In this document: positions 58 to 24,582 of the stretch, one piece after another | How positions within the stretch are numbered: position 1 is the stretch's first letter | How the letters are laid out: the number at the start of each line of letters is the position of its first letter | Origin: a virus | Reading direction: 5' to 3' (one strand) | Virus record (IMG/VR): IMGVR_UViG_3300049739_000011 | Coordinates: 1 to 24,953 of that record | DNA: 24,953 nucleotides | Program-made: the position numbers and the translations under genes | The notes under the pieces: model-generated | Seen by the model: only the letters and a program-made list of their open reading frames with translations | What the model was told of the DNA's origin: nothing | The model's database searches: none

Positions 58-1502
58 AAAAAATTAAATACGCAGTAGGCTCAGTAGCTCAAGCAGCAGC
101 AGAGGGCGCTGACTCATTGTTGTCTGAAGCTCGTAAAGATGTAGTGGCTGCTCGTGGCCCTGAACGCACAACCCCCATAGAAGTTGAAGAAATGGCAGAA
201 GCTGTATCTAAAACAAAGGGTAGCGCAGAATCAGAAGCTCCTGAAGTTAAAATGGAAAACATTAAAGACACTACTAAGCTTGTAAACTCTTTTAAATTTC
301 AAGGCGGAAACAAAAAGATGGACAAGCAGTTCATCATGGAGTCTTTAAACGAAGTGGCTGATACCCCTATCGTTGAGTCCAAGCAATCTATTGCTGAGTT
401 CATTACTGATTTGCACCGCACACAAATGGATGAAGAGTCTAAGCCTTTGTTGGCTTCTGATGACTTTGAAAAGCTTGGTGAGTTTGCAAGCGGTGAAGAG
501 CGTGAAGCTAAAAGTGAAGGTGGGGAAATGGACGGCGATAGTGACGTAGCTCGTTTAATGGAACTGACTGAACAATATAATGAAGAGCGTGAAAAAGCTG
601 AGAACGATAAGCAACGAGCACGTATTGATAAGAATTTTAATCAGTATAAAGATACGTTCAGTGATGAAACTATTTTTCAAACAATGATTAAAATGAATGA
701 AAAAGAAAATTTACGAGAAGGTAAGTTCTTAGGCGGTCTTATGACAGCAGCTAAGTCTATGATGGGTGAATCAGGTAGCTCCTCTTCAGGTGGAATTTTT
801 GGTAAAATGTTTGGAGCCGGTAAAAAGATTATAGCCGAAGGCCAAGACTCAGCAGAAGAATCATCTATTGGAGCGCTAGAAGGCCCTGACCCTATTGAGC
901 CTAACAACAATCGTCAAAACCCTGTAAAAGAAGTAGAAGCTCCGGGAACTGACACAGCTATCGGCTACGCAGAAGGTGGTTCATTGCTAGGCGATTCAAA
1001 GCCGGTTGATACATACGACAACATCCCAGAAGGTGAGAAAGCTGCTGTAGAAGCTTCACAACTTCCAGACAACGAGATGGAAGACAAATACGCAGAGTAC
1101 GTAATGGACGAGTCTCTTGAGGCTGACGAACAAGAATATCTTCTCAAAGCCCTTGAAGGCGATGAGCGACTAGGCGCTATCTTTGATAAAATCATGGATA
1201 CAGCCGGAGAATTTGCAGGTGAAGGAGCCGTTAAAGGCCCCGGCACAGGCACATCAGATTCGATACCCGCAAGGCTGTCGGATGGTGAATTTGTTTTCAC
1301 CAGAAAAGCAACCGACCAGATAGGCACAGAAAAGCTTCAGACTATGATGGATGATGCAGAACGTGCTTACGATGGCGGTTTAATGAAAAAGTACGGCGGC
1401 GGAGGCGTGATGCCTAACTTGATGGATATGGAAGACCCTGATTTAGGAGTCCATACCCAGATGCTTAGTTCTAACGCAATGCCAAGCGTACGCAAACGAT
1501 AA
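54..1502 (+). CDS. Acidic virion-associated protein with GPGTGTSDS/DGEF motif
   Basis: This 482-aa protein starts at ATG 54 after a GAGGAA Shine-Dalgarno and overlaps the previous stop by ATGA. It is rich in Glu, Ala and Ser. A helical N-terminal half is followed by a Gly/Ser linker with a short basic hydrophobic patch near residues 230-265. The C-terminal region has GPGTGTSDSIPARLSDGEF at 395-413 and a Gly-rich tail. I recall the GPGTGTSDS...DGEF motif from many marine phage structural proteins of unknown function. Its place just before scaffold and capsid points to a head or morphogenesis role, perhaps minor head or internal protein. No enzymatic motif is visible. The family association is from memory; the exact role is unknown. 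Confidence 0.8.
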   Translation: MKKIKYAVGSVAQAAAEGADSLLSEARKDVVAARGPERTTPIEVEEMAEAVSKTKGSAESEAPEVKMENIKDTTKLVNSFKFQGGNKKMDKQFIMESLNEVADTPIVESKQSIAEFITDLHRTQMDEESKPLLASDDFEKLGEFASGEEREAKSEGGEMDGDSDVARLMELTEQYNEEREKAENDKQRARIDKNFNQYKDTFSDETIFQTMIKMNEKENLREGKFLGGLMTAAKSMMGESGSSSSGGIFGKMFGAGKKIIAEGQDSAEESSIGALEGPDPIEPNNNRQNPVKEVEAPGTDTAIGYAEGGSLLGDSKPVDTYDNIPEGEKAAVEASQLPDNEMEDKYAEYVMDESLEADEQEYLLKALEGDERLGAIFDKIMDTAGEFAGEGAVKGPGTGTSDSIPARLSDGEFVFTRKATDQIGTEKLQTMMDDAERAYDGGLMKKYGGGGVMPNLMDMEDPDLGVHTQMLSSNAMPSVRKR

Positions 1503-1524
1503 GGCTACCTGTTAGCGCAGCCCC
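1503..1524 (+). repeat. Bulged hairpin repeat, copy 1
   Basis: The sequence pairs GGC (1503-1505) with GCC (1520-1522) and TG (1510-1511) with CA (1518-1519). The bases TACC (1506-1509) form a 5'-side bulge and the loop is six bases. Trailing CC follows, as in the other copies. The flanking AA 1501-1502 and TT 1525-1526 could extend the stem past the CC. It begins immediately after the stop codon of the upstream gene. Confidence 0.5.
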
Positions 1525-1548
1525 TTATTAATACCTAAAATAACCAGA

Positions 1549-1571
1549 GGCCACCTTGTAGTATCAAGCCC
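1549..1571 (+). repeat. Bulged hairpin repeat, copy 2
   Basis: GGC (1549-1551) pairs with GCC (1568-1570), and TTG (1556-1558) pairs with CAA (1565-1567). The 5'-side bulge is CACC (1552-1555) and the loop is six bases. The arrangement matches copies 1 and 3, with stem and bulge kept and the loop sequence different. Confidence 0.55.
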
Positions 1572-1593
1572 TATTCTTTTTCGCGAATCGAAT

Positions 1594-1619
1594 AGCTACC
1601 TTGAAAAGACTCAAGCCCC
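1594..1619 (+). repeat. Bulged hairpin repeat, copy 3, next to scaffold RBS
   Basis: GC (1595-1596) pairs with GC (1615-1616), and TTG (1601-1603) pairs with CAA (1612-1614). The bulge is TACC (1597-1600) and the loop is eight bases. The CCCC run at its end touches the AAAGGAG at 1620-1626, so folding or protein binding here could affect translation of the scaffold gene. Confidence 0.55.
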
Positions 1620-1632
1620 AAAGGAGTGTGAA

Positions 1633-2433
1633 ATGACTGATTTACCCGAAGTACAAGAAGAAGAAGTAGCAAACCCATACAACATGAGAAAAGACTATAC
1701 AGGCGAACAAGATGCCCCTTTTCAAAGTGCTGATGGTGTTTGGCATGAACCTAGACAGGCTACCCGCAAGTCGGCCCCTGACGAAAAAGAGTCAAGTACA
1801 GATTATAAAAAACGATACGATGACCTAAAGAAACACTACGATTCTAAGATTAATGAGTTCAAACAGAAAGAACAAGAACTACAAGCAGAAGCTCGAATGA
1901 CACAGCAAGTTGAACAGGCCGTACGTCACGAGGATAACACTGAAGCAGAACTTGCAGCCGAGTATGTTGAACAAGAAGCTGAAGCACTAGAACCGGCACG
2001 AACAGCTACGCTAGACGAACGTGAAGCCCGGATTGAACGAAGAGAAGCGGAACAAACGCTTGCTTCAAAACATCCAGACTTTGCAGATATTCGTCAAAGT
2101 GAAGAGTTCCACGGTTGGGCCAAAGCACAGCCAGAAGCAATTCAGGACTGGGTGTATAATAATCCAGATAACGTAGGTTTAGCGGTCAAAGCTATCGACC
2201 TTTATAAGATGGAAACTGGCTTAGGAGTTCAATCTTCTAACGGTAAGACAGGAAGTTCACAAACCTCGACCGCTTCGGCAGCAGATATGGTTTCAACAAA
2301 AACAAAAACCATTGATGCTAACGAGCCGAAGATATGGTCACAAAGGGAAATTGCTGCACTGTCTATGGATGCGTATGATAAACATGAACAAGAAATCGAC
2401 GCAGCCATCATGGAAGGCAGAGTAGTAGCTTAA
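1633..2433 (+). CDS. Capsid scaffolding (assembly) protein, T7 gp9-like
   Basis: This 266-aa acidic, highly charged protein lies directly before the major capsid gene, the usual place for a T7-like scaffold. Residues about 55-150 are rich in Glu, Lys and Gln with coiled-coil character. A more ordered segment follows (residues 150-195, with HPDF and WVYNNPDN), then a Ser/Thr linker. The C-terminal helix carries IWSQREI and ends EGRVVA. I recall this ending in marine podophage scaffolds, and a C-terminal helix is the usual capsid-contacting part of scaffolds. The start has AAAGGAG six bases upstream. Expected role: templates procapsid assembly and then leaves. Assignment rests on position, composition and the C-terminal pattern. 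Confidence 0.8.
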   Translation: MTDLPEVQEEEVANPYNMRKDYTGEQDAPFQSADGVWHEPRQATRKSAPDEKESSTDYKKRYDDLKKHYDSKINEFKQKEQELQAEARMTQQVEQAVRHEDNTEAELAAEYVEQEAEALEPARTATLDEREARIERREAEQTLASKHPDFADIRQSEEFHGWAKAQPEAIQDWVYNNPDNVGLAVKAIDLYKMETGLGVQSSNGKTGSSQTSTASAADMVSTKTKTIDANEPKIWSQREIAALSMDAYDKHEQEIDAAIMEGRVVA

Positions 2434-2466: not shown

Positions 2467-3435
2467 ATGGCTCTTAACGTATCAGACCAAGGTTTTAAAC
2501 AAACCACAACCGCCAACAACAACTTTGGCACAAGCACTAACTTCCTACCAGCAATTTACTCCAAGAAGGTTCTTAACTTCTTCCGTAAAGCGTCGGTAGC
2601 TGAAGCAATTACCAACACTGACTATGCAGGCGAAATTTCTGCATTCGGTGATTCTGTTAAAGTTATTAAAGAACCAACCATTTCTGTTTATCAGTATGAG
2701 CGTGGCGCTGACGTAACTGAAACTCGACTGACCGACACTGAGATTTCTCTTGTTGTTGATACTGCGAACGCATTTAAGTTCGTTGTAGATGACATTGAAA
2801 CTTCTATGTCTCACGTAAACTTCAAAGAAGTTGCTGCTTCATCTGCTGCTTACGCTCTGCGTGACGCATTTGATACTGCTGTAATTGCTGCTGGCATTGC
2901 AGGTCTATCTGCTTCTAGCCCGAACCACGTTCTAGGTGCTGATACTGCTGATTCTCTTGGTAGCGGCGTTCTTGACGGAGCAAAAGGCATCGGTTTTCAC
3001 CACGAAGGTTCTGACCCTCTGGATGTACTGGCTAAGTTTGCCCGCCTTTTGGACGAGCAGAATGTACCAGAAGAAGGTCGTTGGGTAGTTGCACCTCCTA
3101 GCTTCTATGAAGAACTGTCTCAGTCTGGCTCTAAGCTTCTGTCTGTTGACTTCAATGCTGGTCAAGGCTCCATCCGTAACGGTCTCGTTACTTCTGGTAA
3201 GCTCCGTGGCTTTAGCATGTACAAGTCTAACAACGTAGCTGCTCCAAACTTGGCTGATGGTCAGATTCTGGCAGGTCACATGTCAGCTATTTGTACTGCA
3301 CAGACTATCACCAGCACTGAGGTCATCCGTGACCCAGATAGCTTCGGTGACATCTGTCGTGGTTTGCACGTATTCGGTGTTAAGGTCATGCGACCTGAAG
3401 CACTCGTTGGTGCATTCTACAACCTAGCTGCATAA
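2467..3435 (+). CDS. Major capsid protein, T7 gp10-like (HK97 fold)
   Basis: This 322-aa protein has the length and style of T7-type capsid proteins. The N-terminus is short, followed by FLPAIYSKKVLNFFRKASV, a charged segment (GDSVKVIKEP), and the VDDIETSMSHVNF helix region. The C-terminal half has WVVAPPSFYEEL and ends in GVKVMRPEALVGAF. Its codon use is visibly more C/T-ending (GCT, TCT, GTT, CGT) than its neighbours', as expected for the most highly expressed gene. AAGGAAAC precedes the ATG. It follows scaffold by 33 bases and is closed by a strong terminator, which fits high-level head production. No frameshifted longer form is evident. Confidence 0.93.
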   Translation: MALNVSDQGFKQTTTANNNFGTSTNFLPAIYSKKVLNFFRKASVAEAITNTDYAGEISAFGDSVKVIKEPTISVYQYERGADVTETRLTDTEISLVVDTANAFKFVVDDIETSMSHVNFKEVAASSAAYALRDAFDTAVIAAGIAGLSASSPNHVLGADTADSLGSGVLDGAKGIGFHHEGSDPLDVLAKFARLLDEQNVPEEGRWVVAPPSFYEELSQSGSKLLSVDFNAGQGSIRNGLVTSGKLRGFSMYKSNNVAAPNLADGQILAGHMSAICTAQTITSTEVIRDPDSFGDICRGLHVFGVKVMRPEALVGAFYNLAA

Positions 3436-3452: not shown

Positions 3453-3480
3453 GGGGGCTGTAAAAGGCCCCCAATCTTTT
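3453..3480 (+). terminator. Rho-independent terminator after the capsid gene
   Basis: A perfect 6-bp GC stem, GGGGGC (3453-3458) with GCCCCC (3467-3472), encloses an eight-base loop and is followed by AATCTTTT. It lies 17 bases after the capsid stop. T7-like phages commonly place a terminator after the capsid gene to keep head mRNA above tail mRNA. The T-run is short, so partial read-through into the tail genes is likely. Confidence 0.85.
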
Positions 3481-17259: not shown

Positions 17260-20200
17260 ATGGCAATAGAATATAAAGATGGTAAGATTGTACGTACTGG
17301 CGATGACGGAATGTCACACACCTACGAAGAAATTTATGGTGGAACTCCTGCTGCTCCTGAACCAGAAATGTCAATTACTGATTATGAAAATAACCCGCAA
17401 GTAATAGAAAAATTTGAAAGGCTTACAGGTTACTTAGCAGAACAAAAAGGTTTAGGAACCACGATTGTTGATGTAGGCGCTGCTCTAGGTAAAGACAATA
17501 TTGCAGAAACTATGCGAGACTTTCAAAATAGATTAGGTACAAAAATTGCAGCAATCCAAAACCTTAAAGATGCTCCTCAAGAAATTAAAGACGATTTAAA
17601 TTTTCTTTTACAAAACTGGGAAAAAGCATCTCCTGAAGGTGCTGCGGAATGGACAGAATCTGTTTATCATAACATGGCTGATTTTCTAATTAACCCTGAA
17701 ACGTTTGCTGCTATTGGCGCAGGTATAGCTACATCGCCTGCTGGCGGTACCGGTGGTATTGCTACAAAAGTAGCTACAACAGCTGCTAAAACAGCGGCGA
17801 CAAGAAAGCTTTATTCTGTGCTTTCAGCTACTACCGCAGCGTCTGCAAAAAATCCTAAAACAGCTATTGCTGCTTTCTCCGCTTTATATGGCGGAGCAGA
17901 CGACTTGTTAATGCAAGACCTTGAAATTACTACTGGCGCTAGAAAAGAAATAGACTTAGGCCAAACCGCACAGACAGCTTTTATTAGTGCAGGCGCAGGT
18001 GTAGGTCTTTATGGTGCCGGTCAGTATATTGCAAAAGGATATAAATCTCTTCGTAACAGCACAGACACTCCTCAAACTAAATCTACTGTTAAAGAAGACT
18101 CAGAAAGTTTTGACAACGCTAGACAATTAGATTTGTTTGATGACGATGTTGATGAGAAAATTTTAAACGGTTTAGATACCCCACGTTTAGACGCTGACGC
18201 TCCTGAAGGAACACAAGGAACTTTGTTTGATTTTGATTCTCCTGTGGGTGTTCCGGTAGTTAAATTTGTAGATGATTTGGGTGGTGGAGAAGCCACAAAA
18301 AAATCTATTCTTAGTGAAATACGTAACATAGCTAACAGCCAAGAAACTCGTAAAGTTAAACGTAGTGCTATTCGACAGGTGCTATACAAAAGTGCTGCTG
18401 AACTAACGGCAAACTTTTATGGTAAAACAGCAGGAACACTGACTCCTTTTAGAGCTGTGTCCGGTACAGCAAGAATACTACAACAAAAACTTCACCATGA
18501 TTTTGGAATCGAAGGCGACATATTGAAGCCGGGCCAGAAGCAAGAAAAAGTTGTAGGTCAAGATTTGTTTGAAGTTCAGCGAGAAATTACTGGACGCTAT
18601 AATGAAAGGTTTAGAGCTATTGTAGATGAGTTATCTTCAACTCAGTTTAAGACTAAGTTTGCAGATAACGTTAATGCTGCGCTAAGTTTAAGTGTTAGAA
18701 GCTCTAAACCTATTACGCATGAAGGTTTTGACGAAGCCACGAACAAAGCAATTAATAGGGCTGCCGGTGAAATTAAAGAGCTTTATTTAGATATGGGTAC
18801 AAGACTTAAAGACATTGGAGTTATTGATAAGCTTGTTGATAACTATACTCCTCGTATGTGGAGCCGAAGCGCTATTGAAAAGAACCCTGAAAAATTAATT
18901 GCGTTGCTTGTAGAAAAAGGTGGCATGAATGAAAAGGGCGCTCGTGCTACTGTAAAAAATATGCTCAATGTAAAAAATCAAATTGAAGGCGGTAACGGTA
19001 GTGGGCATTTCTTTTCTGCAAAACGTAAAATAAATGAAATTGGTGACGATGCAGATTTTGAAGAGTTTTTAAACACAGATGTTTTAGGAACTCTGCACGC
19101 TTATACATTTCAAACAGGAAAGCAGATTGCTAAGCATCGTGTGCTTGGAGTAACTAATTTTGAACAGTTTAGTAAGTTTTACATTAATAGAATTAGAAAA
19201 GAAGTTACAGACGCTGGAGAAACGTTTACAGAAAAAGATGCAAAAAATCTTGAAAGACTTTATAGAACTCAAACCGGAGAAGGGTTAGAGCGCTTTGGTA
19301 TTAAAGCTCAAACTGCTGGCGATGCTTATAGTTTAGTTAATCGTGTAGCTTATCTAGGTCTTGCTACTGTGTCAAGTTTAACAGAAATCATGCTTAACAT
19401 TAGTAAAGCTGGAGTACGTAATAGCGTTAAAGGTCTTGGAGACGCTTTACAAATGTCACACAAGCGTGTTACTGGCGACCTTGAAACTACTCTTAAAAAT
19501 AAACACGGTTTAACCGCTGCCGAAGCTTTTGCTGAAATGCGTAAGTTTAGTATTTACGTTGACCAAGAAATGGGACAGCTAGGCGATAGACTTACTGGCG
19601 ATGCTCTTATAAATGAAACAATGCAGAAAGCAAGCAACAAGTTCTTTAGAGTCAATATGCTTGACCAGTGGACTAAGTTTGTACAGAATGTTTCATTTCG
19701 AAGCGGTAAAAATTTAATTAACGAAAACATTGAAAAGCTTTCTAAGTATGGCGATAATCCTTTAGATAGTCGAGGTAAAACATTAGCCGGTGAGTTAGCA
19801 GAGCTTGGTATTGATTATAAAAAAGGTGTTACTTGGTGGAAAGCCGGAGCAAAACTAGATGATGATTTTTATCAAAAAGATTTATTAGCAGGTACAGCAC
19901 GTTATGTAAACGGTGTTGTTCTTCAGCCTACTGGTCTTGCAGGCAACAAACCTTACTTGTTAGCTAATCCAAAAACATCTATCTTGTTTCAGCTTCTTAG
20001 CTACCCGGCAGCTTTTTCTAATACTATTATAAAAGACATGGGCAAAACACTTACTAAAAGTCCTTTGCGTGGTGGTGTAGGTAGAATAGCACCAGCGGCT
20101 TTATTAATGACTGGTATGGCTCGATGGACTAACTACTTGAGAACTGGCGGCGACAGCGAAAAAAACAAAGACATGGATGAAATTATATACGATTCAGTAG

Positions 20201-23200
20201 CTCGATGGGGCGGCAACGGTCTTCTTATTGATTCTGTTAATCGTGCTAGGGATGCTGCTAAGTATACTAATAACTCCGCAGCTTATCTTACTTTACCTTT
20301 AGGGCCGCTTGGTTCAGACGCTATGAGTTTATATCAGCAAGGGCTTCTTCCAACTCTAGGCAACAAGGTTCCTGTGCTTTCTGGTTCGTACTTTGGTAAA
20401 GAAATCTTAGGAGACTACAAAGTTCGTCAGTATAAGAAAGATTTAAGAAAGGCACAAAGCAAATTATCTGATGCGCTTATCCCTGATTTTAAAGGTACGA
20501 CTACTGGCATTGGTTCCTCGCGCAAAGAGTTTAAATTTGGCGGTATTGCAAAAGCAGTACAAGGCTCCGTTATGGATGTACTTGGAAAGAAAACTGAGGT
20601 TGCCGAATCTTTTAAAGATAACATGGTATCTCCACTAGCTAATGCAACAGACAATTTAATAAAGCCTGAAAAACTTCAAGAGATTTCTAGGAAGATTGAA
20701 GCAGAATATTCAGGAGCACTAAACTCTGAAAATACTTTAGCAGGAGAAAGTTTAGCTGAAGCATATATTATAAACGAAATTAAAAAACGTAACATTTATG
20801 CTGAAGATATTGTAAACATGCCAAAACTAAAGAAAGCTTTAGAATCTGTAGATTTAGAAGATGCTAAATATAAATTTGCTGAAGCTCGTCGTAAGGAAAT
20901 AGCGACAGATGACGAACACGCTATAGCTTTGGATACTATTCAGGAGCTGGCATCAGACCACGATGCGAATGCAAAAATATCTACAGCAGTTAAAGGCTCT
21001 GTTGCAGAGATTAAAAATGTATACAACAGCTTAAAGGTAAACTTAACTAAGCAAGAGTTAGATACAGTGGCTGAGGCTAACTATGATGAAGCAGCTATTA
21101 AATCTCTTCACGACTTTGTAATTTCTCGTGTTAAGCATCCTTCTATTGCTGGAGACTTCGTATCTGACACAGGCGCTGAAAAAATATCTAGAGATATTCT
21201 GTTTAAAATTGCAGCGCAAGGAAACATAGATATATCTAAGTTTAATCCTCCTAAAATAGCAGCAAAAGAAAACGAATCTATTGTTCCTCTTTCTGGCGAA
21301 GCACGTACAGAAGCTGTAGATAAATTTTTAACTGGCTCTAAAGTTAAGAAGATTATTTATCGAGCTAGAAAAAGTTACAGTAATCGAGAGTTTTTTATGT
21401 CTTTTGCAATGCCAAGAGAAATGGGAACTCACATGGGTAATCAAGGTGCTGCTGATAACATCAGACTTAGAGACCTTATTTTTGATTACTGGGACGGTAA
21501 CGAAGCTAGAGATTTATACATTGGAAATAAAAACCAACTTACGCAGCCTGAAACTTTCCAACTTTATGGCGAATTAATTAAAGAAGCTATCCAAAGAAAA
21601 AAGGGAACTCCAAACTTTGATGATTACATTATTGAAGAAGGCGTTGTTAATATTAAGAACCCTTTGGTCTATAAACCTTTTGATGAGCAAGTTGAAAATG
21701 CTGGACAAACTTGGGACATTGTTGAAATCTTTACATCTCCCGACGGCCCTCAAGAATTTTTGACAAACATTAAAGCTTCTGGAACTAAGATTACATCTGA
21801 GTTAGTAGACGAGTTAGAAATTTTAATTGATAAAGCTTATGACGTAAAAACAAAAACTGCTGAAAGCGCTTTAGACAAAGTAGAAAAAGAGTTGATGACC
21901 ATTGAGGTTAATATTGATACTCAAAACATGCTTAAAAAACTAGGCTTCGACGGCATTGAATATCAAAACAAATTGGAAAAAGGTTATATTAACGATGATG
22001 ATATTTCATATATTGCATTTGACCCTGAACAATTTAAAACTTTAGACTCTGCTGGTTTTGACCCTAAAGATGCTAGACATAGATACATGTCAGGAAGTAA
22101 AGTAATTGCTAAAGAAATTGCAAAGTATTTTGCTCCTAAAAGAGAATCGGGCATGTTTAGTGTAGCACAGAAAGAAGCAGCTAACCTTGGTAAAAAGCCT
22201 GTGCAAGGCGATGTCATGTTAAAAAGACTCAAGGATAGAATGGCTCAAGTTAGAACTGATGCGGAAGAAATAAAGTGGACTGGACTAGAAGAAAAGTTTG
22301 CAGGTCAAAAAAATGTAACTCGTGAAGATTTAATTAAGCATATAGATGAAAACGAGTTTGACCTTGAAGTTTCTGTTGGCCGTGTTAGCGAAAAAGAAAA
22401 ACTTAGTAATCAAGCAACCCTCGATAATGCTGTAGACGATATGCCTATAGATGATGTAGCTGACGACTTTGGCACAACTAGAGATGAACAGTTTGATAAC
22501 TGGATGGAAGAAAACCACGGTTTTGAAAGTTCGTTAATGGATGACATGTTGGACGCAGGAGATGACGAAGCTTTTGAAGAAATGTATGATGAGCTTTTCA
22601 GTCAGTTTCTTCGTGAAACTGGTGAAGATATAGATACCGGCGTACCCGCAGGCGCTGACTTTAAATCTAATCGAATGCACCTTGACTATTCTTTTGAAGG
22701 CGTAGACACTAAAAATTATCGTGAGGTTGTTCTTTCACTTCCTGAAAGATTTAAAAGGGTTGCGCTTGATTACCAACACGACCATTTTCCAACTATTAAA
22801 AACCCGGTAGTTCATGTTAGGCTTTCTGATATTGAGCCTTCTAAAACTAACAAAAAAACATTGTTAATTGACGAAGTTCAATCAGACGCTCATCAACAGG
22901 CATCTCGAAAGCCTAAAGGTAAGCAGTATCAAACAGAAGGTACAGAAGTATCAAGTCAACGACAAGCAGAACTGTCTGATGAAATAGATGCTTTAGATGC
23001 AGAAGTAGAAAAACTAGAGAAGTTATTGCCGTCTATTACAGACCCTGCTGAGTATAAAAAGACAGAATTAAAAATTAAAGAGCTTAAAGATAGGAGCAAC
23101 GCACTTGATGAACAGTTAGCTCAAGACGACGATGGATACTTTAATATTGATTTCAGTGACGAAGACGTAGCAGTACCAGATTTACCATTTAAAGATGATA

Positions 23201-24582
23201 AGCGTTGGGGCTTGTTGGGTTTAAGACAGGCAATGAAAATTGCTACTGACGAAAACTATGACCAAGTAGCTTTAGTAACTGGTGCAATACAAGCAAAAAG
23301 AAATGCAAAACTAGTTACTGCTGAACAAGGCGCTACTCTGTATAAAAACCCTTTCTTTGAGGAAGGCGGTACTGAGCCTCAATGGGTTCTTGAAGGACAG
23401 TCAAAAGTAAACAAAACGCTGTATCAAAACTTTAAAACTTTTGAAGACGCTGAAAAAGGACTTGCTAAAGCTATAGGTAAGAAAGACGCTGAAAAATTAT
23501 TAAATAGTAAGCAAGAAAACGGTGAGTACGTTTTACAAGAACCAGTTGAGTTTAGAAAAGGTGGAGATAAGTTCTTTAGTTTTTATGACAAGACACTTAT
23601 CAAACTTCTTAATGATAGGTTTGGAAAGAAGTATGGAGTACAGGTTAAGTATGAACCGTACGTTAGAGGCGATGAAATAGTAGAGCTTCCTACACTTGAG
23701 ATTACTCCTAAGATGCGTAAGGATATTGATAAAGGATTACCTATGTTCTCTGAAGGTGGATATGTCGTAGCAAAAGGCGACACCCTTTCAAAAATCGCAA
23801 GAGATAATAATATAACTGTAGCAAGACTTGCAAAACTTAATGACATTAAAGATTTTAATAAGATTTTTGTAGGTCAAGGTTTAACGTTAAGCGCTGAGCC
23901 TACTAAAAGCATAGCAAAACAAGTTGAGCAAGTACAGCAAGCTGAGCCTGTTAAAGCTGTTATGCCGAAGCAAACCAGTAAGAAACCTTTAGTACAGTCG
24001 AGCCGACAAAAAACTGTAGATGCTCTTCGTAAAAATTTAGCAAACCCTAACTCTAGTTCTAGCATAACAAGGAAACAAGTTGCTGAACAAAGAGGCGATG
24101 GCTTGTTAAATAGCCAAGTGTTTAAAAACTTAGCGACGTATGTTAATCCTTTTGGTAAAGATAAAACAGAAGCAGATTATAGTTCTGAAGTTATTGAACA
24201 GTTAAAAATAGCTGCAAGAAACGCAAGGAAAGACGGTCGAACAAATATTGACTACGCTGACTACAGTAAAGAATCTAATGTTCGTGCTCAAGCAGGAATG
24301 CCTCAACAGCGTACTAGAGACCGGCTTTTAACTAGAGCCTTTAAAGGTCAGCTAACTCCTACTGAAGAAGCAGCATTTTCTGTAGGTGGCGCTCAACTTC
24401 AGGTAGAGGAAGATGACGTATTTGTAACTGACATATATGATTTTTCAAAGCTTACAGATGAAGAACGGACTACAGAACAGCGTGACCGATACTCATACTT
24501 GAGAGACTTTATGTCTAAAATACCCGGCAATGAGTTTAGAAGTAAAATTAAAATTGGAACAAGACAGGAGTTTGAACTATAA
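17260..24582 (+). CDS. Giant multi-domain internal virion (ejection) protein, 2440 aa
   Basis: AAAGGA precedes ATG 17260. Visible regions: a helical N-terminus; hydrophobic Ala/Gly-rich segments at about 142-262; DNYTPRMW near 527 within a helical body (about 350-860); a second hydrophobic region (about 888-1050) with NPKTSILFQLLSYPAAF and LTLPLGPLGSDAM, resembling domains in phage polyvalent proteins; an ADP-ribosyltransferase-like region (about 1361-1606); a very acidic linker (about 1720-1800); a DEVQSD/PFKDD domain (about 1868-2165) split by a coiled coil; a LysM repeat (2168-2211); and a basic tail. T7 gp16 (1318 aa) also has membrane-active parts but carries an N-terminal transglycosylase, which I do not see here. 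It is probably packaged and ejected, anchoring to the wall and delivering enzymatic domains. It overlaps the M15 peptidase start by one base (TAATG). Confidence 0.85.
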   Translation: MAIEYKDGKIVRTGDDGMSHTYEEIYGGTPAAPEPEMSITDYENNPQVIEKFERLTGYLAEQKGLGTTIVDVGAALGKDNIAETMRDFQNRLGTKIAAIQNLKDAPQEIKDDLNFLLQNWEKASPEGAAEWTESVYHNMADFLINPETFAAIGAGIATSPAGGTGGIATKVATTAAKTAATRKLYSVLSATTAASAKNPKTAIAAFSALYGGADDLLMQDLEITTGARKEIDLGQTAQTAFISAGAGVGLYGAGQYIAKGYKSLRNSTDTPQTKSTVKEDSESFDNARQLDLFDDDVDEKILNGLDTPRLDADAPEGTQGTLFDFDSPVGVPVVKFVDDLGGGEATKKSILSEIRNIANSQETRKVKRSAIRQVLYKSAAELTANFYGKTAGTLTPFRAVSGTARILQQKLHHDFGIEGDILKPGQKQEKVVGQDLFEVQREITGRYNERFRAIVDELSSTQFKTKFADNVNAALSLSVRSSKPITHEGFDEATNKAINRAAGEIKELYLDMGTRLKDIGVIDKLVDNYTPRMWSRSAIEKNPEKLIALLVEKGGMNEKGARATVKNMLNVKNQIEGGNGSGHFFSAKRKINEIGDDADFEEFLNTDVLGTLHAYTFQTGKQIAKHRVLGVTNFEQFSKFYINRIRKEVTDAGETFTEKDAKNLERLYRTQTGEGLERFGIKAQTAGDAYSLVNRVAYLGLATVSSLTEIMLNISKAGVRNSVKGLGDALQMSHKRVTGDLETTLKNKHGLTAAEAFAEMRKFSIYVDQEMGQLGDRLTGDALINETMQKASNKFFRVNMLDQWTKFVQNVSFRSGKNLINENIEKLSKYGDNPLDSRGKTLAGELAELGIDYKKGVTWWKAGAKLDDDFYQKDLLAGTARYVNGVVLQPTGLAGNKPYLLANPKTSILFQLLSYPAAFSNTIIKDMGKTLTKSPLRGGVGRIAPAALLMTGMARWTNYLRTGGDSEKNKDMDEIIYDSVARWGGNGLLIDSVNRARDAAKYTNNSAAYLTLPLGPLGSDAMSLYQQGLLPTLGNKVPVLSGSYFGKEILGDYKVRQYKKDLRKAQSKLSDALIPDFKGTTTGIGSSRKEFKFGGIAKAVQGSVMDVLGKKTEVAESFKDNMVSPLANATDNLIKPEKLQEISRKIEAEYSGALNSENTLAGESLAEAYIINEIKKRNIYAEDIVNMPKLKKALESVDLEDAKYKFAEARRKEIATDDEHAIALDTIQELASDHDANAKISTAVKGSVAEIKNVYNSLKVNLTKQELDTVAEANYDEAAIKSLHDFVISRVKHPSIAGDFVSDTGAEKISRDILFKIAAQGNIDISKFNPPKIAAKENESIVPLSGEARTEAVDKFLTGSKVKKIIYRARKSYSNREFFMSFAMPREMGTHMGNQGAADNIRLRDLIFDYWDGNEARDLYIGNKNQLTQPETFQLYGELIKEAIQRKKGTPNFDDYIIEEGVVNIKNPLVYKPFDEQVENAGQTWDIVEIFTSPDGPQEFLTNIKASGTKITSELVDELEILIDKAYDVKTKTAESALDKVEKELMTIEVNIDTQNMLKKLGFDGIEYQNKLEKGYINDDDISYIAFDPEQFKTLDSAGFDPKDARHRYMSGSKVIAKEIAKYFAPKRESGMFSVAQKEAANLGKKPVQGDVMLKRLKDRMAQVRTDAEEIKWTGLEEKFAGQKNVTREDLIKHIDENEFDLEVSVGRVSEKEKLSNQATLDNAVDDMPIDDVADDFGTTRDEQFDNWMEENHGFESSLMDDMLDAGDDEAFEEMYDELFSQFLRETGEDIDTGVPAGADFKSNRMHLDYSFEGVDTKNYREVVLSLPERFKRVALDYQHDHFPTIKNPVVHVRLSDIEPSKTNKKTLLIDEVQSDAHQQASRKPKGKQYQTEGTEVSSQRQAELSDEIDALDAEVEKLEKLLPSITDPAEYKKTELKIKELKDRSNALDEQLAQDDDGYFNIDFSDEDVAVPDLPFKDDKRWGLLGLRQAMKIATDENYDQVALVTGAIQAKRNAKLVTAEQGATLYKNPFFEEGGTEPQWVLEGQSKVNKTLYQNFKTFEDAEKGLAKAIGKKDAEKLLNSKQENGEYVLQEPVEFRKGGDKFFSFYDKTLIKLLNDRFGKKYGVQVKYEPYVRGDEIVELPTLEITPKMRKDIDKGLPMFSEGGYVVAKGDTLSKIARDNNITVARLAKLNDIKDFNKIFVGQGLTLSAEPTKSIAKQVEQVQQAEPVKAVMPKQTSKKPLVQSSRQKTVDALRKNLANPNSSSSITRKQVAEQRGDGLLNSQVFKNLATYVNPFGKDKTEADYSSEVIEQLKIAARNARKDGRTNIDYADYSKESNVRAQAGMPQQRTRDRLLTRAFKGQLTPTEEAAFSVGGAQLQVEEDDVFVTDIYDFSKLTDEERTTEQRDRYSYLRDFMSKIPGNEFRSKIKIGTRQEFEL
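21340..22077 (+). other. ADP-ribosyltransferase-like domain in the giant protein
   Basis: Residues about 1361-1606 keep the sequence landmarks of ART-like domains in phage polyvalent proteins as I remember them: IIYRAR at 1365-1370 in place of the usual YHGT, GTHMGN with QGAA at 1389-1398, KNPL near 1466-1469, LGFDGIEYQN at 1561-1570 with Glu1573, and SYIAFDPEQFK at 1583-1593, then GFDPKDAR. The spacing and order are right. The His of the first motif is Arg, so the active form may be of the R-type or it may be inactive. Assignment is pattern-based. Confidence 0.6.
22861..23754 (+). other. Polyvalent-protein-type domain (DEVQSD ... ITPKM)
   Basis: LLIDEVQSDAHQ (1868-1879) is followed, after a coiled-coil insert, by DLPFKDDKRWGLLGLRQAM (1974-1992), YDQVALVTG (to 2008), FYDKTLIKLLNDRFGKKYG (2108 onward) and ITPKMRKDIDKGLPMF (2148-2163). 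This series matches a domain I recall from large phage and mobile-element proteins, where an E-QSD motif and a final ITPxM...G-P-(L/M)-F segment are conserved. Its biochemical activity is not known to me. Confidence 0.6.
23761..23892 (+). other. LysM peptidoglycan-binding repeat
   Basis: Residues 2168-2211 read YVVAKGDTLSKIARDNNIT, then RLAKLNDIKD, then IFVGQGLTLS. This is a complete single LysM: the Y-x-V-x-x-G-D-T-L-x-x-I-A opening, the L-x-x-L-N centre and the I-x-V-G-Q-x-L closing. LysM binds N-acetylglucosamine-containing glycans such as peptidoglycan. It probably positions the ejected protein at the cell wall. Confidence 0.92.

Follow-up and report, generated by a model that had tools for sequence, protein, structure and literature searches.

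A conserved internal-loop RNA module at the scaffold gene of podophages and its candidate role as a translational operator

Genes and repeated elements of the locus

The DNA analysed in this study (the window) is a virus record of 24,953 bases carrying podophage virion genes, with tail genes also present. The genes around the RNA elements, and the ribosome site of the putative scaffold gene, are as follows.

54-1502, + strand: upstream ORF, with its stop codon at 1500-1502
1620..1626, + strand: scaffold Shine-Dalgarno (SD) sequence AAAGGAG, directly 3' of the compound hairpin described below; the spacing is constant in relatives
1633..2433, + strand: putative scaffold gene (266 aa), phrog_13678, which has no named function; directly before the coat gene
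2467..3435, + strand: major capsid (coat) protein gene, phrog_267 major head protein (E 1.5e-70)

The scaffold gene is presumed to be the regulated gene, and its product the candidate ligand; the coat gene, which starts 33 nt downstream of it, is possibly co-regulated. A GC-rich hairpin that runs into a stretch rich in T (3453-3472), immediately downstream of the coat gene, is likely to be an intrinsic terminator, and one ORF of 2,440 aa (17260-24582) takes up the greater part of the window's right-hand portion. Among annotated phages, the nearest coat proteins were those of HTVC115P, HTVC103P, HTVC104P, ctYwJ313 and HMO-2011, with 44-54% identity.

The initial annotation described three like elements upstream of the scaffold gene, each read as an independent hairpin with a four-base YACC bulge. 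The corresponding pattern was found on the + strand at 1503, 1549 and 1594, and both strands of the window were otherwise empty. Dinucleotide shuffling of the whole window gave a mean of 0.007 pattern matches per 25 kb over both strands, and none of 300 shuffles contained three matches. The three elements are therefore real and far beyond chance, and this part of the description stands, but a fourth unit at 1756-1780 had been missed. A looser module scan returned five + strand sites (shuffled mean 0.15), namely the three copies, a site at 1758 in the scaffold ORF and an unrelated one at 17727.

Relatives were collected by a scan with the coat protein, which yielded 80 viral loci, and by a DNA pattern scan (see below); 84 leaders were analysed singly once near-identical ones had been removed, and four additional scans with coat proteins led to 104 leaders after dereplication. 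The module descriptor was derived from these same sequences, and for this reason module counts near the scaffold gene are not independent of it, whereas the contrasts of position and strand do not depend on it. Related sequences are present in several alignments, and the E-values of the home-made models are approximate.

Structure and covariation of the modules

By comparison of relatives, the unit was defined as P1-G[CYAC]-P2-loop-P2'-[(C/A)(C/A)]-C-P1', with the internal-loop bases in square brackets. The YACC-bulge register was rejected, as it needs a C:G pair that is absent in relatives of copy 1, where C stands opposite A or C (for example GG[CUAC]UUCAG..CUGAA[CC]CC). Judged from the aligned relatives, what is conserved is a 4 x 2 internal loop (CYAC/CC) that a covarying Y-R pair closes. 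An array of such modules, each of the form G[CYAC]Y/R[(C/A)C]C with a helix on either side, spans the leader and the start of the scaffold coding sequence; it consists of one simple hairpin, one compound hairpin ending at the SD sequence, and one simple hairpin approximately 125 nt into the ORF.

1498..1529, + strand: module 1 (copy 1), simple hairpin; P1 1498-1504/1523-1529, CUAC 1505-1508 with CC 1521-1522, P2 1509-1512/1517-1520, loop 1513-1516
1549..1619, + strand: compound hairpin of two inverted modules (copies 2 and 3); P1 GG 1549-1550/CC 1618-1619, loop 1 CCAC 1551-1554 with CC 1616-1617, CUUG 1555-1558/CAAG 1612-1615; CAAG 1565-1568/CUUG 1600-1603, loop 2 CC 1569-1570 with CUAC 1596-1599, linker helix 1571-1576/1590-1595
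1756..1780, + strand: module 4, simple hairpin in the scaffold ORF; P1 CAGG 1756-1759/CCUG 1777-1780, CUAC 1760-1763 with CC 1775-1776, P2 CCG 1764-1766/CGG 1772-1774, loop 1767-1771

Module 1 was matched by model R1 with 40.2 bits, and the minimum free energy (MFE) fold of 1497-1531 was the same as the fold given above. Its outer helix has 7 bp (1498-1504 with 1523-1529), which the first reading had overlooked. Matched changes were seen in relatives both in P1 (AUAAGG/CCUUAU, AUAAAG/CUUUAU, GUAGAG/CUCUAC) and in P2 (UUCAAA/UUUGAA, CUAGA/UCUAG, UCUAU/AUAGA, GGA/UCC). In an alignment of 33 sequences, 94.3% of cells could pair (71.8±1.5 when shuffled), and both sides changed in 11 of the 12 pairs. 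The stop codon of the upstream ORF (1500-1502) sits in P1 of module 1, with the same arrangement in relatives that have copy 1, so that ribosomes ending the upstream gene would open this hairpin.

Module 4 was indicated by extra matches of model R1 located approximately 250-290 nt downstream of copy 1, within the scaffold ORF, as well as by the window scan and a positional scan (see below). The lengths of its homologues (27-39 nt) differ by multiples of three, as the reading frame requires, and P2 covaries (CCGC/GCGG, UUCCG/CGGAA, UCGC/GCGA, CUUU/AAAG, CCAA/UUGG).

The reading as three independent hairpins was disfavoured for copies 2 and 3. In the MFE structure of the window leader, copy 2 pairs through its 3' half with copy 3, which contributes its 5' half (UCAAG[CC]CUAUUC..GAAUAG[CUAC]CUUGA), the CAAG of copy 2 pairing with the CUUG of copy 3, and this gives the same internal loop reversed, on the linker helix CUAUUC/GAAUAG. 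The central 4-bp arms can also pair within each copy, and the CUUG/CAAG arms fully fit both folds in 69 of 78 leaders. L010, L066 and L071, for which the two folds differ, all favoured inter-copy pairing, and no other leaders set the folds apart. With the arms enforced, the inter-copy fold was the lower in energy in 75/76 leaders, by a mean of 4.0 kcal/mol, and it was the exact MFE structure in L066, L077 and L151. In addition, the 5' flank of copy 2 pairs with the 3' flank of copy 3 as an outer helix (ACGG/CCGU, AAGG/CCUU, UUCGG/CCGAA), with 4.5 of 5 positions paired against 3.98±0.13 in shuffled sets, a value equalled in 4 of 5,000 shuffles. The outer helix of the window's own compound has just 2 bp (GG/CC). 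The best reading of copies 2 and 3 is a single compound hairpin, with the loop present in two head-to-head copies about a linker helix. The loop of the linker hairpin (1577-1589 in the window) often contains (A)ACGCGAA or GACG, and is conserved beyond what the stem needs.

In four independent alignments, covariation exceeded that of shuffled versions, for module 1 (0.675 vs 0.237±0.020; 33 sequences), module 4 (0.484 vs 0.150±0.021; 31 homologues), the leaders of CRP-9/CHOED type (0.339 vs 0.178±0.029) and the compound (0.204 vs 0.094±0.013; 18 compounds). Values for slid alignments were lower still (≤0.180 for module 1); the slid control keeps the relatedness of the sequences, which is lost in the shuffles. 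The signal in the compound came from the outer and linker helices, as the CUUG/CAAG arms are invariant in the 18-compound alignment and hence uninformative there. The folding energy of the whole leader was not unusual (z 0.37), so that energy alone is no evidence of structure; the covariation is.

Position and distribution

When 82 loci (666 kb) were scanned by position, modules fell at -150..0 and +100..+150 relative to the scaffold start, and no 50-nt bin outside these ranges held more than one. For all window-clade leaders measured (83/83), the unit precedes the scaffold gene, with the closing C of the last module 13-23 nt from the start codon (median 17), which is in the translation initiation region of the presumed regulated gene, as for an operator. 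This distance was 17-25 nt in 39/39 leaders of CRP-9 type and 13-14 nt in 11/11 of HTVC103P type, and in most groups the last module ends 12-25 nt before the start codon. In nearly all coat-scan loci holding a leader, the motif was found just upstream of the scaffold gene, and never on the opposite strand. The RNA structure is conserved, its position is nearly unique, and its spacing to the ribosome site is kept.

A DNA pattern scan of viral contigs, in which the coat gene was not used, gave the same leader in about 64 of the 77 matches listed, some of which overlap the first set. Thirteen pattern matches in viral contigs lacking homologous genes look like chance. In whole-genome model searches the best match was at the scaffold leader in most phages, and other matches were weak; the few genomes that gave no match reflect models whose description leaves out the double form. 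Model R2 also matched weakly in the coding sequence of phage RNA polymerase genes (L461, MQM1 record 55369-55407; L462, CHOED record 50080-50107).

The module was present directly 5' of the scaffold ribosome site in the Pelagibacter phages HTVC115P, 103P, 104P and 033P, in the SAR116 phage HMO-2011, and in the roseophages CRP-1, -3, -9, -13, -207, -212, -235, -345 and CRP-738 (an AUAC variant). It was also found 5' of this site in Rhizobium phage RHph_N3_19 and Sinorhizobium phage phiM6 (with a variant second loop) and, with A as the first loop base, in Vibrio phage CHOED and Aeromonas phages MQM1 and 1233. The double form with the second loop inverted was seen in HMO-2011, CRP-1/3/212/345, ctYwJ313 and RHph_N3_19, and a single module in CRP-9/13/207/235. 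Most of the 104 dereplicated leaders have the module, including those of rhizobiophage-like contigs, where the inner helix shows matched variation (UUCAC/GUGAA, CCUGCA/UGCAGG, UCGC/GCGA); misses in the rhizobiophage set are due to the simple descriptor of the script, and the double form was seen by eye in those leaders. The scaffold leaders of Slicky01 and P22 were examined and the module was absent, as it was in the distant relatives RHph_TM3_14A and AP45 (31-32% coat identity). On sequence comparison, the module is kept by matched mutations in relatives infecting very different bacteria.

The initial annotation held that the copies were repeated RNA rather than DNA operators, and named missing covariation, or absence from relatives with the same gene order, as evidence to the contrary. 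When this was checked, covariation was strong and the element was present in such relatives; together with the G-U pairs and the strand specificity, this upholds the RNA reading.

Two further sequence features were observed near the array. A conserved CC lies 5-6 nt before copy 2 (1543-1550 in the window; AACCUAGAGG, AACCUUGAGG, AACCAGAGG) and is complementary to the GG of the scaffold SD. Sequestration of the SD by the compound alone was considered and set aside, as in the ensemble the SD pairs only in part with this AACCU(A/U)GA flank; because the SD sequence is fixed, such pairing is beyond the reach of covariation. HMO-2011 and the CRP phages have a non-coding stretch of 230-340 nt between the scaffold and coat genes (for example L201:2691-2960, L209:2190-2460, L200:2707-2955 and other CRP/HMO-2011 loci), of which the window has no equivalent. 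Several of these stretches begin with a sigma-70-like promoter (TTGACA ... TATAAC), and they share the blocks GGCCC..ACCC..AGCCTC and resemble a second structured leader; no Rfam match was obtained for those of the CRP/HMO-2011 loci. In ctYwJ313, an HNH-endonuclease-like ORF is inserted between the two genes (L199:2270-2839).

Candidate functions of the array

The scaffold mRNA keeps the array across phages whose hosts are unrelated, and the ligand is therefore most likely to be phage-encoded. We give about an even chance to the reading that the array is a translational operator of the scaffold(-coat) mRNA, autogenously bound by a head-assembly protein, with the scaffold protein as the first candidate. 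The CYAC/CC loops would be the recognition site of this RNA-binding protein, which, once bound, would hold the SD-proximal hairpin and repress translation initiation of the scaffold gene and of the coupled coat gene. Unassembled scaffold protein would act as the autogenous repressor, and its uptake into procapsid assembly would relieve the repression. The presence of several identical loops would fit a ligand that is oligomeric.

A basic block, KRYxDL, is almost invariant among the scaffold proteins and lies where a helix predicted with confidence (residues 55-146) begins, in a model whose overall pTM is just 0.37. This block could equally serve coat binding or oligomerisation. Control of the head genes by a bound protein, as initially suggested, stays the best explanation; confidence in the mechanism is moderate, because the binding partner is one that we infer and because the Slicky01 scaffold has the block yet a leader with no module, meaning that block and RNA do not co-vary cleanly.

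Binding of the modules by a conserved host factor, such as a ribosomal protein or another host RNA-binding protein, which would enhance or repress head-gene translation, is unlikely though worth consideration. The modules adjoin the SD, and one loop functions, or is at any rate preserved, across hosts of several proteobacterial orders; however, the element is tied to one phage gene across very different hosts, and no second gene with it was seen in the phage genomes. It is rather improbable that the hairpins lend stability to the head-gene section of the late mRNA or serve as a processing mark, such that scaffold and coat messages outlive or outnumber the upstream ones. Stable hairpins located at the 5' edge of the genes in heaviest use, and the overlap of module 1 with the upstream stop codon, would agree with this, but the conserved unpaired loop, the constant SD spacing and the copy in the ORF would all be unneeded.

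There is only a small chance that the array is a cis-acting transcription element, for example a put-like RNA which alters RNA polymerase so that it reads through a downstream terminator such as that at 3453-3472. The put RNAs are paired hairpins that act without a protein ligand, and a terminator-like site does follow the coat gene, whereas the constant SD spacing, the ORF copy and the mid-operon position would be unexpected. A protein-free switch responding to temperature or a ligand, in which alternative pairings of the CUUG/CAAG arms or of the AACCU flank open and close the SD, is very improbable. The arms of copies 2 and 3 can indeed pair either way in most leaders, and the flank partly pairs with the SD, but the inter-copy fold is almost always the lower in energy, leaders of the single-module CRP-9 type have no alternative arms, and the simple modules 1 and 4 would be left unexplained. 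A DNA-level element (operator, origin or packaging site), which a short repeated intergenic motif might suggest, can be dismissed given the covariation including G-U pairs, the restriction to the sense strand, the fixed position at the scaffold start and the in-frame copy inside the ORF.

With regard to the preferred reading of an autogenous operator, the P22 scaffold has been reported to regulate its own synthesis post-transcriptionally. The gene 8 scaffolding protein of P22 is thus similar in that its amount is controlled after transcription, and also in the related coat fold and in the scaffold gene lying directly before the coat gene; it differs in that a 13-nt gap precedes gene 8, with the module absent there, and in that the scaffold lacks the KRYxDL block. 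The T4 proteins RegA, gp32 and gp43 are translational repressors with mRNA operators, which bind the translation start region of phage mRNA and compete with the ribosome, gp32 and gp43 acting on their own mRNAs (PMC3014915). The T4 targets are replication genes and the RegA sites have no clear secondary structure (PMC3014915), in contrast to the covarying internal loop described here, which occurs in up to four copies and also in the ORF. The manA and wcaG motifs, detected by covariation in marine phages, are likewise candidate cis-regulatory RNAs, but are tied to cyanophage metabolic genes, and the word 'capsid' is absent from the main text of that report (PMC2864571). The C-loop motif is also a recurrent internal-loop module between helices, a likeness in kind only, with no membership claimed (PMC3854523, PMC12510878). 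No Rfam 15 family reached its gathering score in the window or in 17 related phage loci, and none was found for 1440-1680 at E up to 10; a literature search, with incomplete coverage, found no description of the module. The module appears to resemble a phage translational operator in its working, and we do not assign it to any named operator family.

More tentatively, the CYAC/CC loop may be a new module for RNA-protein recognition; through it, the scaffold (or coat) protein of HMO-2011-like and related podophages, while free, would sense the state of head assembly and shut off its own translation. On this same tentative reading, one to four copies of the module would serve, a single hairpin could hold it in both orientations, and it would reach into the coding sequence. 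Such an architecture is unusual, with one internal loop used singly, as an inverted pair, and in coding sequence with covariation.

The module offers a compact, testable RNA site for control of the amount of head protein, and is available in cultured phages (CRP, HTVC, HMO-2011, CHOED and rhizobiophages), so that the old question of how a scaffold protein controls its own synthesis could be asked at a defined RNA. It is carried by an abundant group of viruses of ocean bacteria, in which it probably controls the amount of the head-scaffold protein.
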